Assembly (NCBI GenBank): GCA_025458105.1
Contig: JALOTD010000052.1
Span: 1-64,000 of the forward strand
Origin: Tabrizicola sp.
GTDB lineage: Bacteria; Pseudomonadota; Alphaproteobacteria; Rhodobacterales; Rhodobacteraceae
Length of the DNA: 64,000 nt
Direction: 5' to 3'
A program made the translations under genes and the position numbers. Of this stretch, positions 10,550-17,647 are shown piece by piece. Positions within the stretch are counted from its first letter, which is position 1; every line of letters begins with the position of its first letter. Below the pieces are notes generated by a model that saw only the letters and a list, made by a program, of their open reading frames with translations, ran no database searches and was not told the origin of the DNA.

Positions 10550-11359
10550 ATGCGTCGTCTGATCCCGGGCCTTCTGGCCGCGGTGATATGTGTTGTAGGC
10601 CAAGCAGTTGCGCAGGACTCGGAAGTTGTCGCCCTGCAGACAGCCGACGATTCGCGCGGCTGGGATGCGGTCGGCAAACTGATCTTGGGCGGACGCGGCT
10701 TTTGCACGGGGGCCTTGATTGAACCGCAGCTGGTTCTGACGGCGGCGCATTGTCTGTACGACAGGCAGACCGGCGTCCAAATGCGCCCGGAGGAGATCGA
10801 GTTCCAGGCGGGCTGGCGCAATGGACGCGCTGTCGCCTATCGCAGCGTGGCGCGCGCCATCACTCATCCGGACTATCGCTATGGCGGCACGGACAAGTTG
10901 GAACGTGTAACGGCTGATCTGGCGCTTCTGGAACTCAGCCAGCCCATACGGCTGCCGTCGCTTGTCCCCTTTGAGACGGGGGCAACGCCGGTCGAGGGGG
11001 ACGTGGTCGGGGTCGTGTCCTATGCACAGGACCGGGCTGAGGCGCCCTCGATCCAGGAAACCTGCGAGGTCATCGCCGGACGACGGGATACTCTGATCCT
11101 GTCCTGTAGCGTGGATTTCGGTTCCTCTGGATCACCGGTCTTTTCGACCGCAGACGGGGTGGTGCGGGTTGTGTCCGTGATTTCTGCGAAGGCAGAGGTC
11201 GACGGTCGAAAGGTTGCATTGGCGGTGCCACTTGCCGTACCGCTGCAAGCCCTTCGGGATGCGCTTGCGGCCACTGGGTCGATGGGGCGTCACACCGACC
11301 ACGGGGTGTCGGTCCTATCCGGAGGGCTGGCCGGGGGAGCGAAGTTCATCAAGCCATGA
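10550..11359 (+). CDS. Secreted trypsin-like serine protease (S1 family)
   Basis: Signal peptide, GFCTGALIEPQLVLTAAHC, DLALLEL, GSSGSPV. Confidence 0.85.
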   Translation: MRRLIPGLLAAVICVVGQAVAQDSEVVALQTADDSRGWDAVGKLILGGRGFCTGALIEPQLVLTAAHCLYDRQTGVQMRPEEIEFQAGWRNGRAVAYRSVARAITHPDYRYGGTDKLERVTADLALLELSQPIRLPSLVPFETGATPVEGDVVGVVSYAQDRAEAPSIQETCEVIAGRRDTLILSCSVDFGSSGSPVFSTADGVVRVVSVISAKAEVDGRKVALAVPLAVPLQALRDALAATGSMGRHTDHGVSVLSGGLAGGAKFIKP

Positions 11360-12171
11360 GATCGCTTCTTGTTCTGATCATGCTCGCCTTGCCGGCATTC
11401 GGGCAGGACAACTCGGGTCTTGATCGTCTAACCACCCGTGAAGACCTGCGCGGATTTGAGGCCGTTGGACGGATCGACATTCAGGATGGCGGGTTCTGCA
11501 CCGGAACGCTGGTTGCGGCAGATCTGGTCCTGACAGCGGCACATTGCCTGTTCGACGATGACCAGCAACCGATCCCGGCAGGGCGGATTACCTTTCGGGC
11601 GGGTCTGGCAGATGGCACGTCCGTGGTCGACGCGCAGGTGGCACAAACGGTCGTGCACCCCGACTATCGACCCGTCGAACCCTCACCGCTTGACCAGATC
11701 AAGATTGACGTCGGCCTTCTGAAACTTGTCGCGCCGATCCCGACATCCCAGATCGCGCCCTTTGCCATCACGGTTCCGGGCGCCGGCGACGAGGTCAGCG
11801 TCGTGTCCTATGCCGCAGGTCGGGCCGAGGCCTTGTCCTGGCAGCGGGCCTGTCAGGTCGTGGCGCGCTACGACAGTCTGATCGCGGTCGATTGTGATGT
11901 GACCTTCGGCTCCTCGGGGGCGCCCGTCCTTGACCGGTCCGCCGGATATCGCGCCAAGATCGTGTCGCTCATTTCCGTCGGTTCAACCTATGACGGCAAG
12001 CCGGTTGCTGTGGGCATGGAGCTTCCCGACCTTGTCGACTTTCTGAAGCGGGGCCTGCGCAGCGGTCGGGCGACCACCGTCGCCGAAGATGAGCTTGCTC
12101 CGCGCACGGCGGGCAAGCGGATCGTGATCGGTGAGGGAAACGACACGGGAGCTCGATTCGTAAAGCCCTAA
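11356..12171 (+). CDS. Secreted trypsin-like serine protease (S1 family), tandem paralogue
   Basis: GFCTGTLVAADLVLTAAHC, DVGLLKL, GSSGAPV; 4-nt overlap with the preceding protease. Confidence 0.85.
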   Translation: MRSLLVLIMLALPAFGQDNSGLDRLTTREDLRGFEAVGRIDIQDGGFCTGTLVAADLVLTAAHCLFDDDQQPIPAGRITFRAGLADGTSVVDAQVAQTVVHPDYRPVEPSPLDQIKIDVGLLKLVAPIPTSQIAPFAITVPGAGDEVSVVSYAAGRAEALSWQRACQVVARYDSLIAVDCDVTFGSSGAPVLDRSAGYRAKIVSLISVGSTYDGKPVAVGMELPDLVDFLKRGLRSGRATTVAEDELAPRTAGKRIVIGEGNDTGARFVKP

Positions 12172-12764: not shown

Positions 12765-12786
12765 TCCCGAACACTGCAAAAGGAAA

Positions 12787-12810
12787 GGGGCGCGAAATCG
12801 CGCCCCTTTT
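12787..12810. terminator. Rho-independent terminator after hsp20
   Basis: GGGGCGCGA-AA-TCGCGCCCC followed by TTTT; stem directly readable. Confidence 0.8.
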
Positions 12811-12820
12811 CACTCTGGGC

Positions 12821-13243
12821 TCAGGGGACCGGTGACGCGCTGACATCGACGGCCCAGCTCTGCATTACTCCCGTGTTGCAGCCGCCCACGATGCCGATGG
12901 CCGAGATATGGACCACCGCCTCGCCCGGGCCATAGCCGCGTCCGATGACCACGTTGTCGCTTTCCCCGGGGCGCAGCTGCCGCGTAAAGCCGCGGCTCCA
13001 GTTTTCCCCCGGATACCAGGCGGTATAGACCACGTCGGAACAATGCGTTTCTGGCGCGCGCAGCGTCAGGAAGAACTCCACTTCCGGTCCGTCCGAGCGG
13101 AAGCGGTATTCGGCACGCGCGGCGCAGATCGTCGCGCTGCCGCTGTTCACCAGCTCGGACCCCTGACAGACCGCCTCCAGACGGTCGGCCAAGGCAGGGC
13201 TGGCAAGAAGGGCAACAGCGGCAGCAAGGGCAAGACGTTTCAT
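12821..13243 (-). CDS. Secreted four-cysteine hypothetical protein (one domain copy)
   Basis: Signal peptide MKRLALAAAVALLASPALA; RAPETHCSDVVY...RQLRPGES...IGIVGGCNTGVMQSWAVD. Confidence 0.75.
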   Translation of the reverse strand: MKRLALAAAVALLASPALADRLEAVCQGSELVNSGSATICAARAEYRFRSDGPEVEFFLTLRAPETHCSDVVYTAWYPGENWSRGFTRQLRPGESDNVVIGRGYGPGEAVVHISAIGIVGGCNTGVMQSWAVDVSASPVP

Positions 13244-13254
13244 GACACTTTCCC

Positions 13255-14121
13255 TCAGTTCAGTTGCAGAAGCTGGGCATCGACGCCCCAGGACTGGATC
13301 TCGCCGACGTTGCAGCCGTCGACATAGCCGACCGCGCCGATGTCGATGACCTGCGGTCCCGCGTCCCAGTTCGCACCCAGTGACAGGCGGAAGCTTTCGC
13401 CCGCCGACAGACGCGGCGACATGGCCAGCGTGCTGCCCGTGGCGGGGTCGTTGATCATGTAGGTCACGGTCGAGCAATGTGTGGCCGGCGCGGTCAGCGT
13501 CAGGTCCAGCTCGTGTCCGCGGCCGGGCGAGACAAAGTCGATCGGGATCAGCCGGTCGCAGGCCATCGACGCGACACCGGGGGTCACCTCGAATGGCAGG
13601 CTCGCACCGCATTCGACGGAAAGGCTGGTACTGACCAGAAGCGTCGGCGAGGACGAGGCGACTGGTGCCGCGTCAAGCGGGAACACTTCGGTCAAGGCCC
13701 CCCAGGAATGCATCTGCCCGACGTTGCAACCGCCGATGTGGCCTATGCCCGTGATCGAGATGTAGTCGCCCTCCTCGGCCCAGCCTTCCGCAAGCTCGAT
13801 GATCTGGTCTTCGCCGGGGGCAAGACGACGCGTGACGGCCAGCGGCGCAAAGTCGGGGAAGCGCGTGATCTCATAGGTGATGTCCGAGCAGTGGGACGTC
13901 GGCGCACCGATTCGCAGCAGCATCTTCTGGCCAAGGTTCGGCGCCGAAACCGGCAGCACCTTGCCTTCGTTGCAGATCGTCGTATCGCCGGGGCCGGCGT
14001 TTGAGAAGGCGCACATCACCTCCCAGCTTTCGGGGTCGGCCAGCGCTGCGCTGGCGACCATCGGGGCGGCGGCAAGAGTTGAGAGCGCAAGCAGTTTACG
14101 GGTCGAGAGCAGAGCAAGCAT
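13255..14121 (-). CDS. Secreted hypothetical protein with two copies of the four-cysteine domain
   Basis: GAPTSHCSDITY...GHIGGCNVGQMHSWG and TAPATHCSTVTY...GYVDGCNVGEIQSWG. Confidence 0.75.
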   Translation of the reverse strand: MLALLSTRKLLALSTLAAAPMVASAALADPESWEVMCAFSNAGPGDTTICNEGKVLPVSAPNLGQKMLLRIGAPTSHCSDITYEITRFPDFAPLAVTRRLAPGEDQIIELAEGWAEEGDYISITGIGHIGGCNVGQMHSWGALTEVFPLDAAPVASSSPTLLVSTSLSVECGASLPFEVTPGVASMACDRLIPIDFVSPGRGHELDLTLTAPATHCSTVTYMINDPATGSTLAMSPRLSAGESFRLSLGANWDAGPQVIDIGAVGYVDGCNVGEIQSWGVDAQLLQLN

Positions 14122-14263
14122 CGGTCAATTCCTTCGTGTGAATGTGGGTTGCGGCAGGTCCGTGCCAAGAACGCTGGCACGGGGTCGGCGGCTATGGAAA
14201 ATCGGCGGACTGTCAGATCGTAACGCCGCCGTGATATCTGATAACTTGTGCGTTATCAGGGCG

Positions 14264-14686
14264 TTACCGGGGGACAATTTCCGTCTCGGCCCCGAAGGAA
14301 TGGATCATCCCGACATTGCAGCCGCCGGTATGGCCGACGCCGGTGACGGTGATGAAGTTCTCGCCATCGGCCCAGGCATTGCCCAGCTTGACTGTCTTGC
14401 GCTCAGAGGGCTTTAGGCGTTCGAGCGTTGCGATGGGGTCGCTGGAGCCGGGAAAGAGGTGGATCAGATAGGTGACTTCCGAACAGTGGCTGCGGGGTGC
14501 GCGTATCTTCAGCACCATCTCGGTTGTGGGGGTGGGGGGCGTAAAGGCCAGCATCTTGCCTTCGGAACAGACCTGTGAGTCGGGCCATGGGCCGGGGGTG
14601 CTGGCAGGGCAGGTGACGGCCCAGCTTTCGGCAAGGGCAGGTACGGTAGAGACGAGAAGGACAGCAATGACGGCGGGTTTGAACAT
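14264..14686 (-). CDS. Secreted four-cysteine hypothetical protein (one domain copy)
   Basis: MFKPAVIAVLLVSTVPALA signal; RAPRSHCSEVTY...GHTGGCNVGMIHSFG. Confidence 0.75.
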   Translation of the reverse strand: MFKPAVIAVLLVSTVPALAESWAVTCPASTPGPWPDSQVCSEGKMLAFTPPTPTTEMVLKIRAPRSHCSEVTYLIHLFPGSSDPIATLERLKPSERKTVKLGNAWADGENFITVTGVGHTGGCNVGMIHSFGAETEIVPR

Positions 14687-14774
14687 AACGGGCTCCGACA
14701 CAATGGCCGGAACGGGCTCCGGCGCAGATGAGCCTACCATCCGCGCCGGACTTGCGAATACCGCGAACCGGGTA

Positions 14775-16961
14775 TCAGTTGGCCGATAGGCTTTGCGCCA
14801 ACCGCATCAGGTTGACCGCCTCGATCCGGTAGCCGTAGGGATCGTCGCCCCGGTTGGTGACGGCCAGGTCGATGGCCTGGTCCCAGCCCCAGTCGCCGGT
14901 GTAGACCGACCCCTGCAGAAGCTGACCAAATCCAGCGATTGCGGCGGCAAAGCGGGTCTCGGCTGTCGCCTCTTCGGTCCCTGTGATCGGGGTCTCAACC
15001 AGGGTGGACTGTTCCTCACCCGGGGCCTTCCAGCGCAGGCGAAGGAAGCCAAGCTCACCTTCCGTGCCTTCGGCGGTGGCCGCGCCATAGCGCAGGGGGT
15101 CGTTCAGCAGGGCATCCGAGCCGGGGGCGGTGATCTCGTAGATCGCGGTAACTTGCGTGCCCGCGCCGATTTCGCCCGCGTCCACGGCGTCGTTGTTGAA
15201 ATCCTCACGCCGCAAGCTGCGGGTTTCATAGCCGATCAGCCGGTATTCGGCCACGGTGGCGGGATTCCATTCGACCTGGATCTTCACGTCGTCGGCGATG
15301 GGGAAGAGCGCGCCAGTCAGCTGATCCACAAGCACTTTGCGGGCCTCGGACAGGGTGTCGATATAGGCCGCCGTGCCGTTCCCGTTCTGGGCCAGGCTTT
15401 GCATGATCGCGTCGTCAAGGTTGCCGCGCCCAAAGCCCAGGACCGACAGATAGGTGCCGGTCTCCCGCTTCTTGGCGACATAGGCCTCCAGCCCCTCGGG
15501 GTCGGAGACGCCCACGTTGAAGTCGCCATCTGTGGCCAGAAGGATGCGGCTGACCTCGCCATCAGCCTTCATCCCTTCGGCCACCTGATAGGCAAGCTCC
15601 AGCCCTTCGGCCCCGGCGGTTGATCCGCCAGAGGCGAGGTTGTCGAGTGCGGCCATGATTGCGGCGCGGTCGGCAGCGGCGGTGGGGGGCAGGACCTGAC
15701 CGGCTGACCCGGCATAGGCGACGATGGCCACCTGATCCTCGGGTCGGAGTTCGGCCAACAGTAGGGACAAGGACTGTTTCAGAAGCGGCAGCTTGTTCGG
15801 GTCTTCCATCGAGCCAGAGGTGTCGATCAGGAAGACAAGGTTCAGGGGCGGGCGTTCGGTCACCGCAGGCAGGGCGCCTTGGATGCCGATGGTCACCAGC
15901 CGCGTGCCGGGGTTCCAAGGGGTGGGCATCACGCTGATGGTGGAGGCGAAGGCCTCTTCCTCGGTGGGCGCCTTGTAGGCGTAGGGGAAGTAGTTGACCA
16001 TTTCCTCGATCCGCACCTGATCGGGCGTCGGAAGGACGGCCATGTTCAGGGTGGACCGGATCACGGCCCAAGAGGCGGTATCGACGTCGATGGAGAATGT
16101 CGAGACGGGCTCTTCAGCGGTAACCTTGACCGGGTTCGGGGCTTCAGTGGCGTAGGCCTCGGTATCCTCAAGTTGCGGCTGCACCAGTTCCGGGACGGGG
16201 GCGACGACAGGTTCGGCGGTGACATAGCCCAACGTACCGCCGATGGCTTCGGCGGGGGCCTCCATGCGCAGGCGCAGTTCGGCGTCGCCTTCCATCATCG
16301 GGGCAAGCGCTATCGCTGCCGGGTCAGAGAGTTCACTCTCTCCGCCGTTGGTGGCAGGGGCGGCGGGAAGCGCCTCTTCGGCCAGCAAGCTGGCTTCGGC
16401 CTCGGGCTCGGCTTCGGGCAGCACATCAGCCATCGGCTCGACCGGGGCGGGTTCGGCGGTGGCGACCGAGCTTGCAAGGTCGTTGCCGGTCGCACGGTCA
16501 AGATTGGCCTCAGCCGTCTCGTGATTGGCCTTCGGCAGGGGGGGGGCGTCCATCGTGCCGGGCGGGGTGGTGTTGCGCTCGGTGACTGCGGCCACGTCGC
16601 CGGTGTCCGGCGACGCGGGGTCGGCTTCGGCGACTTTGGGTTTCGCCGTTGCAACCGGCGTATCGGTTGGTCCGGTGCGCAGGTCGGTGACGGGCAGGAT
16701 GACAGCCACGCCGATGAGGAGCGCGGCGGCAGAGGTGGAAATGGCAAGGGCAGGGCGGGAGGTCAGGAATTTGAACATGCGGCGTACTCCGTTCTGGGGG
16801 GCCGCTTTCGTGCGGTCCTCACTGGAACGGGGCGCGTCTGCTGATCCTTGGAGCCGGTCGAAGTTTTCCATCGCCAGGGCCATGGCGCGGGCCTTGGCGT
16901 CGGCTTCGGGTGCTGGCGCGGCCTTGAGCAGCATGCGGAGGTCGTCGAGATCGTCGGTCAT
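14775..16961 (-). CDS. VWA domain-containing YfbK-type protein with N-terminal TM segment
   Basis: FSIDVDTASWAVIR, RIEEMVNYFPY, LVFLIDTSGSM, ILLATDGDFNVGV, GFLRLRWKAPG. Confidence 0.88.
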   Translation of the reverse strand: MTDDLDDLRMLLKAAPAPEADAKARAMALAMENFDRLQGSADAPRSSEDRTKAAPQNGVRRMFKFLTSRPALAISTSAAALLIGVAVILPVTDLRTGPTDTPVATAKPKVAEADPASPDTGDVAAVTERNTTPPGTMDAPPLPKANHETAEANLDRATGNDLASSVATAEPAPVEPMADVLPEAEPEAEASLLAEEALPAAPATNGGESELSDPAAIALAPMMEGDAELRLRMEAPAEAIGGTLGYVTAEPVVAPVPELVQPQLEDTEAYATEAPNPVKVTAEEPVSTFSIDVDTASWAVIRSTLNMAVLPTPDQVRIEEMVNYFPYAYKAPTEEEAFASTISVMPTPWNPGTRLVTIGIQGALPAVTERPPLNLVFLIDTSGSMEDPNKLPLLKQSLSLLLAELRPEDQVAIVAYAGSAGQVLPPTAAADRAAIMAALDNLASGGSTAGAEGLELAYQVAEGMKADGEVSRILLATDGDFNVGVSDPEGLEAYVAKKRETGTYLSVLGFGRGNLDDAIMQSLAQNGNGTAAYIDTLSEARKVLVDQLTGALFPIADDVKIQVEWNPATVAEYRLIGYETRSLRREDFNNDAVDAGEIGAGTQVTAIYEITAPGSDALLNDPLRYGAATAEGTEGELGFLRLRWKAPGEEQSTLVETPITGTEEATAETRFAAAIAGFGQLLQGSVYTGDWGWDQAIDLAVTNRGDDPYGYRIEAVNLMRLAQSLSAN

Positions 16962-17500
16962 TTCGCGTCCTCCCTTGCCATGGCCCGAAGGCGTTTCTTC
17001 ACTTCGCTCATCCGCCAGGCGATTGTGCCTTCGCTGACGCCCAGGACAACCCCGGCTTCGGCCTGCGTCATCTCTTCGCCCAAGACCAGCGCCACAGTGT
17101 CGCGCAGTTCGGGCGACAGGCGGGTCATCGCCTCTGCCAGCCAGTCGTGGGCCTCGGCCTGTACGGCGATTTCATCCTGCCGCGCCAGTTCCCAGTCGCC
17201 CCAGCCTAGGGAGGCCCGATGGCGGGTCTGCTGGCGCCGGCGCAGGTCATGGGCGGCGTTGACCACGACGCGGTAAAGCCAGGTGGTAAACCGCGCCTCG
17301 CCGCGCCAGTTCCGCAGCTTGGCGGGAAGGGCCGCGCAGATGTCCTGCGCCAGATCCTCGGCCTCGGTCCGGCTGCCGGTCAGCCGCCAGGCAAGGCCAT
17401 GGATGCGGTCATAGTGGCGCCCGACCAGCGTGGCAAAGGCCGCGCGGTCGCCTTGCGCCGCTGCCGTGGCCAGCATTTCATCGGGCGTATCCATCAGCAT
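16958..17500 (-). CDS. ECF-type RNA polymerase sigma factor
   Basis: GDRAAFATLVGRHYDRIHGLAWRLTGSRTEAEDLAQDI...FTTWLYRVVVNAAHDLRRR...MTQAEAGVVLGVSEGTIAWRMSEVKKRL; start may be 17494. Confidence 0.88.
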   Translation of the reverse strand: MLMDTPDEMLATAAAQGDRAAFATLVGRHYDRIHGLAWRLTGSRTEAEDLAQDICAALPAKLRNWRGEARFTTWLYRVVVNAAHDLRRRQQTRHRASLGWGDWELARQDEIAVQAEAHDWLAEAMTRLSPELRDTVALVLGEEMTQAEAGVVLGVSEGTIAWRMSEVKKRLRAMAREDAK

Positions 17501-17647
17501 CACGTTATCTGGGACGCGGCCCGGGGGGCAATCCTTGGGTCGGGCGCGGAAATCCTTACCCCGAATGAAAAGACCCCCGGTCCGGAAGGGCTCCGGGCCG
17601 GGGGCTGCAGGCCTGCTGCGGTCTTCGATCACTTGGGGAAAAGGGAA

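Follow-up and report, generated by a model that had tools for sequence, protein, structure and literature searches.

Why does a Tabrizicola genome keep three adjacent small genes that carry, between them, four copies of one cysteine-containing domain, and what could the exported products do? The window, as we call the whole stretch of 64,000 nucleotides that was analysed, contains the genes 4C-A (12821..13243), 4C-B (13255..14121) and 4C-C (14264..14686), coding for exported proteins of 140, 288 and 140 amino acids. 4C-A and 4C-C harbor a single domain of about 120 residues with four cysteines, and 4C-B harbors two, B1 (about 13675-14037) and B2 (about 13261-13650). The first-pass annotation had placed three genes here but overlooked their strand: all three frames are open on the minus strand, while the plus-strand frames are interrupted by stops. 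Its claim that the copies are of one domain was borne out. A search of the genome with 4C-C retrieved the other three copies with E values of 2e-34, 1e-16 and 1e-15, well outside the range of chance; all four match one another at E 1e-15 to 1e-34, they are only 28-45% identical, and their alignment contains 19 invariant columns, which include the four cysteines and the A, P, H, S, Y, G and N residues of the motif. The finer description of that motif stood only in part, as 13-17 residues lie between Cys1 and Cys2, the RL.PGE element is approximate (QLRPGE, RLAPGE, RLSAGE and RLKPSE are its variants), and copy C ends in GMIHSFGA and lacks SWG. The signal peptides it had reported were found, by eye, on all three proteins as a hydrophobic N-terminus followed by an AxA site (ALA preceding D or E).

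The orthologues of these genes are under purifying selection, with dN/dS values of 0.11-0.32; the ratio was 0.19 for 4C-A and 0.29 for 4C-B, each compared with its L037 orthologue, and 0.32 for 4C-C compared with that of Rhodobacter calidifons. Because orthologous pairs show values of about 0.1-0.3, the reading frames are real genes, and spurious ORFs were ruled out. No known family claimed them. Searches of Pfam-A, NCBIfam, PHROGs and PADLOC with single proteins and with profiles gave nothing near the curated cut-offs, the best Pfam match (E 0.05) coming from one member only; the PDB sequences, searched in the same two ways, gave no match, nor did plasmid and phage records. The Pfam hit that would have given the domain a name was thus sought and not found, in agreement with the first reading. 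An Rfam scan of 9-20 kb returned nothing, and in the literature consulted we found neither a report on this family nor a paper tying YfbK to ECF sigma factors.

The distribution of the family is narrow. Within the same genome, the 4C-C search identified two more relatives, on contigs C147 and C77, and a third, more distant one lies on C80. The C147 paralogue (L067 1-8868) is about 4 kb from VgrG/PAAR-like genes resembling parts of a type VI secretion system, from which an ABC permease and an esterase-like gene separate it; this vicinity is probably a coincidence. Members of the superfamily (E <= 0.001) were detected in 17 of the 32 species of the genus, and the clustered form in five (G000, G001, G013, G019 and G030). 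The closest named organisms with matches are Tabrizicola MAGs, other Rhodobacterales MAGs and R. calidifons M37P, a named isolate with an orthologous locus (PMC9231093), which makes bench tests possible. Among 397 genomes of the taxonomic family, sampled at one or so per genus, the 4C profile and that of its sister family A3 each found members in just 3 of 396 genera, the own genus counted. A class-wide search of 387 sampled genomes yielded no member outside the own genome. As only ten candidates per genome were scored in these wide searches, weak relatives may escape and the absences are not absolute. Together, these data describe a real, exported and selectively maintained family that is unnamed and confined almost entirely to one genus.

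The remaining matches within the genus belong to A3, a four-cysteine sister family that is more widespread there than the cluster. The relationship between the two is supported by a profile comparison (hhalign probability 98.4%, E 9e-15) and by reciprocal searches, in which the A3 profile retrieved clustered 4C members. Inspection of five loci, with genes named by eye, placed A3 each time between prfC and the gene of a DEAD-box helicase; prfC is its immediate neighbour in one locus, and a single gene stands between the two in the other four. Examples are L068 7462-7851, L072 5899-6378 and L074 6211-6606. Like 4C, A3 is unnamed, has a signal peptide, four cysteines in most members and a beta-sandwich model. 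Unlike 4C, it is single copy, lacks GGCN.G..HSW, has a short Cys1-Cys2 spacing and shows no N-terminal strand in its model.

The proposal of a beta-sandwich with two disulfides gained support from structure prediction and from the pattern of cysteine loss. An AlphaFold2 model of 4C-C, built from 14 sequences, is a beta-sandwich with a mean pLDDT of 90.4 and strands at residues 20-25, 37-48, 57-62, 71-78, 96-102, 110-119 and 130-139. In this model Cys26 follows the first strand and Cys40 falls early in the second, while Cys68 and Cys123 occupy the loops after strands 57-62 and 110-119, respectively. The A3 model (pLDDT 82) resembles this sandwich but lacks its first strand. The four cysteines are present in nearly all members; in the relatives from G077 and G437 (loci L107 and L108), however, Cys1 and Cys2 are both gone and Cys3 and Cys4 are kept. 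A 1-2 plus 3-4 pairing predicts such a joint loss, which therefore supports it, although two events at most are involved and this falls short of proof. The actual protein would probably have its cysteines paired in this way.

Comparison of the models with known structures pointed to a general type of fold. Foldseek found no neighbour in the PDB at E <= 0.001 for either model, and the weak neighbours reached a TM score of at most 0.53, so the match is a generic one for beta-sandwiches. For 4C these neighbours included CBM4, CBM6, CBM86 and a porphyran CBM, and for A3 they included CBM36, CBM6, CBM35, a porphyran CBM and the cellulose-synthase subunit BcsB; viral jelly-rolls and others also appeared. 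Against viral models, six matches at E <= 0.001 were obtained, with a query TM of at most 0.44, all to generic fibre/collagen-like and jelly-roll domains. Subunits of the Ena appendages were among the weak matches of both models, which raises the idea that the 4C proteins assemble, through disulfides, into a fibre on the cell surface. Ena1B and Ena2A share with them the beta-sandwich and N-terminal cysteines, and the presence of several paralogous subunits with an N-terminal cysteine pair would fit. We consider such a fibre highly improbable, as the TM score by target is at most 0.53 with E about 5e-3, neither Pfam nor sequence comparison links 4C to Ena, and the N-terminal cysteines are dispensable, being entirely missing from two homologues. 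Moreover, Ena appendages are known from spore-forming Bacillus, which belongs to a different phylum.

Conservation was highest in two loops. Per-column conservation computed from 14 domains averaged 0.82 in the Cys3 loop and 0.76 in the Cys4 loop, and 0.54-0.64 in every other segment. Jointly the two loops scored 0.79 as compared with 0.57 for the other loops (p 5e-5 versus random positions, an optimistic value because the loops were picked once the motif was known), and the contrast was unchanged when the cysteines were left out. To judge by the alignment, two loops stay fixed on a scaffold that varies, as would be expected of a putative binding site for a constant ligand. The conserved Gly, Pro and His of these loops could also be structural.

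Our preferred reading, to which we assign roughly one chance in three, is that 4C is a binding module, exported through Sec and stapled by disulfides, whose conserved loop site would most likely take a glycan. The three genes would deliver modules to the periplasm or release them, each built on one compact beta-sandwich. A Cys1-Cys2 link would brace it at the N-terminal strand; the second link, Cys3-Cys4, would join the AP.THCS loop, which follows strand 57-62, to the GGCN.G..HSW loop, which follows strand 110-119. Stapled in this manner, the two loops, whose H, N and G are invariant and whose S and aromatic residue are nearly so, would in this reading come together as one preformed putative site for one conserved ligand. 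By analogy with the CBMs, which bind through loops, this ligand would most likely be a glycan of the envelope or of the surroundings. The sandwich models, the joint loss of Cys1 and Cys2, the loop conservation, the weak CBM matches and the dN/dS values all count for a binding module. CBM4, CBM6, CBM35 and CBM36 are likewise small secreted beta-sandwiches, they recur among the weak structural neighbours of 4C and A3, and the conservation at the loop ends of 4C is compatible with a loop binding site such as theirs. Against a glycan-binding module, no Pfam CBM profile matches the sequences, and the structural matches to CBMs have TM <= 0.50 and E > 0.001. Unlike CBMs, the 4C domains are neither attached to nor evidently beside glycoside hydrolases; reading the neighbouring genes by eye, we saw no evident polysaccharide-acting gene next to the cluster. 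The two-disulfide pattern and the HCS and GGCN.G..HSW loops are the family's own. It is a modest new family and not a new kind of system. New small secreted families are common; 4C, an unnamed domain family, stands out by a clear fold prediction, a disulfide pattern, a defined conserved surface that can be tested, and a named isolate that carries it.

The tandem arrangement had been taken to imply selection for dosage or diversification, and our data do not support this as stated. In a maximum-likelihood tree, the A copies of different species cluster together, as do the B2 copies, and B1 joins C (99/99). As these groups are common to several species, the duplications predate them, and a recent amplification was ruled out. 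The copies are thus old, they have diverged to the identities given above, they evolve under purifying selection, and the two most conserved segments are loops, the opposite of diversifying selection, under which loops would be expected to vary. The second gene of R. calidifons (L041 5902-6357) resembles B1 over the greater part of its length and A at its end, the last block showing 9/12 identities to A as compared with 5/17 to B1; it looks like a B1-type head fused in frame to an A-type tail, as if a deletion had joined two tandem copies.

The gene neighbourhood offers another explanation. Upstream of the cluster lies a gene for a VWA/YfbK-type protein (PF12034, PF12450 and PF00092; 14775..16961, minus strand), overlapped by 4 nt by the gene of an ECF-type sigma factor with Sigma70 regions 2 and 4 (16958..17632, minus strand). 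The 4C proteins could be an output or a periplasmic ligand of this membrane pair, in an envelope-stress operon where the VWA protein acts as sensor or anti-sigma factor. The cluster starts 88 bp past the VWA gene on the same strand, and it directly follows that gene in 5/5 genomes that have it (the window, L037, L041, L069 and L070), including L069, where the Hsp20 and protease genes are not adjacent. However, VWA-YfbK is present in 30/32 members of the genus and the cluster in just 5/32, in the ten other loci examined VWA is followed by an empty slot or by unrelated genes, paralogues reside at unlinked loci, and a conserved element upstream of 4C-B, not repeated before the sigma gene, suggests a separate promoter. 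A common VWA gene followed by a variably filled slot indicates that the cluster is an accessory filling, and we regard the operon explanation as possible but doubtful. The most interesting of the rival proposals goes further, presenting 4C as a new ligand-binding superfamily of the Tabrizicola lineage, with its stapled loop site, and the cluster as the effector arm of envelope sensing by the ECF sigma/VWA-YfbK pair; this we hold to be unlikely. To our knowledge, the periplasmic role of YfbK-type VWA proteins is unexplained. If the link were true, 4C would be the first periplasmic partner for these proteins; if false, 4C is a typical lineage-specific secreted family.

In the VWA protein itself the N-terminus looks cytoplasmic and there is one hydrophobic segment; from its sequence, this protein may serve as an anti-sigma factor. 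Relatives (L114-L123) differ in what separates the ECF-VWA operon from the convergent Hsp20 gene (12765-14775 in the window): the slot is empty in some and holds different genes in others, in L123 for example a small secreted protein and a pair made up of a second ECF sigma and an anti-sigma-like protein, as named by eye.

Convergent with the cluster and downstream of it are the Hsp20 gene and two trypsin-like protease genes. Exported proteins that are small and rich in disulfides often act as protease inhibitors, and the two tandem secreted proteases, 0.65-2.7 kb away across the convergent junction, could have the 4C proteins as inhibitors or partners. Such a role is distinctly unlikely, since the proteases are kept in loci that lack the cluster (such as L114, L117, L119 and L120), L069 has the cluster and no adjacent proteases, the convergent orientation gives no co-transcription, and no inhibitor family was matched. 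The two protease genes (10550-12171, plus strand) overlap and share a C-terminal tail, GAKFIKP / GARFVKP, that is retained in related species too.

Of the non-coding DNA, the region between 4C-C and 4C-B (14122..14263, minus strand) contains a candidate promoter or operator. Its element, CTGATAACG..ATCWGATATCACG..GTTAC, lies about 100-130 bp before 4C-B and is conserved in three species, and this conservation suggests that 4C-B has its own promoter or operator. The core (14230-14242) has one exact copy in the genome and elsewhere two one-mismatch sites only; a genome scan detected the element neither upstream of the ECF sigma gene nor upstream of the other paralogues. A regulon sharing this motif was ruled out, as the element does not recur save for those two sites. 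An 11-bp perfect hairpin, AAAGGGGCGCG/CGCGCCCCTTT, read from the sequence between 4C-A and the convergent Hsp20 gene (12784..12809), would make a terminator-like end of the cluster; the consensus scan did not report it. The region before 4C-B also contains a perfect inverted repeat (14238-14245/14252-14259), and nested perfect inverted repeats, GTAACGCC/GGCGTTAC and CTGATAAC/GTTATCAG, were observed at 14220-14267, where they are partly conserved in two other species.
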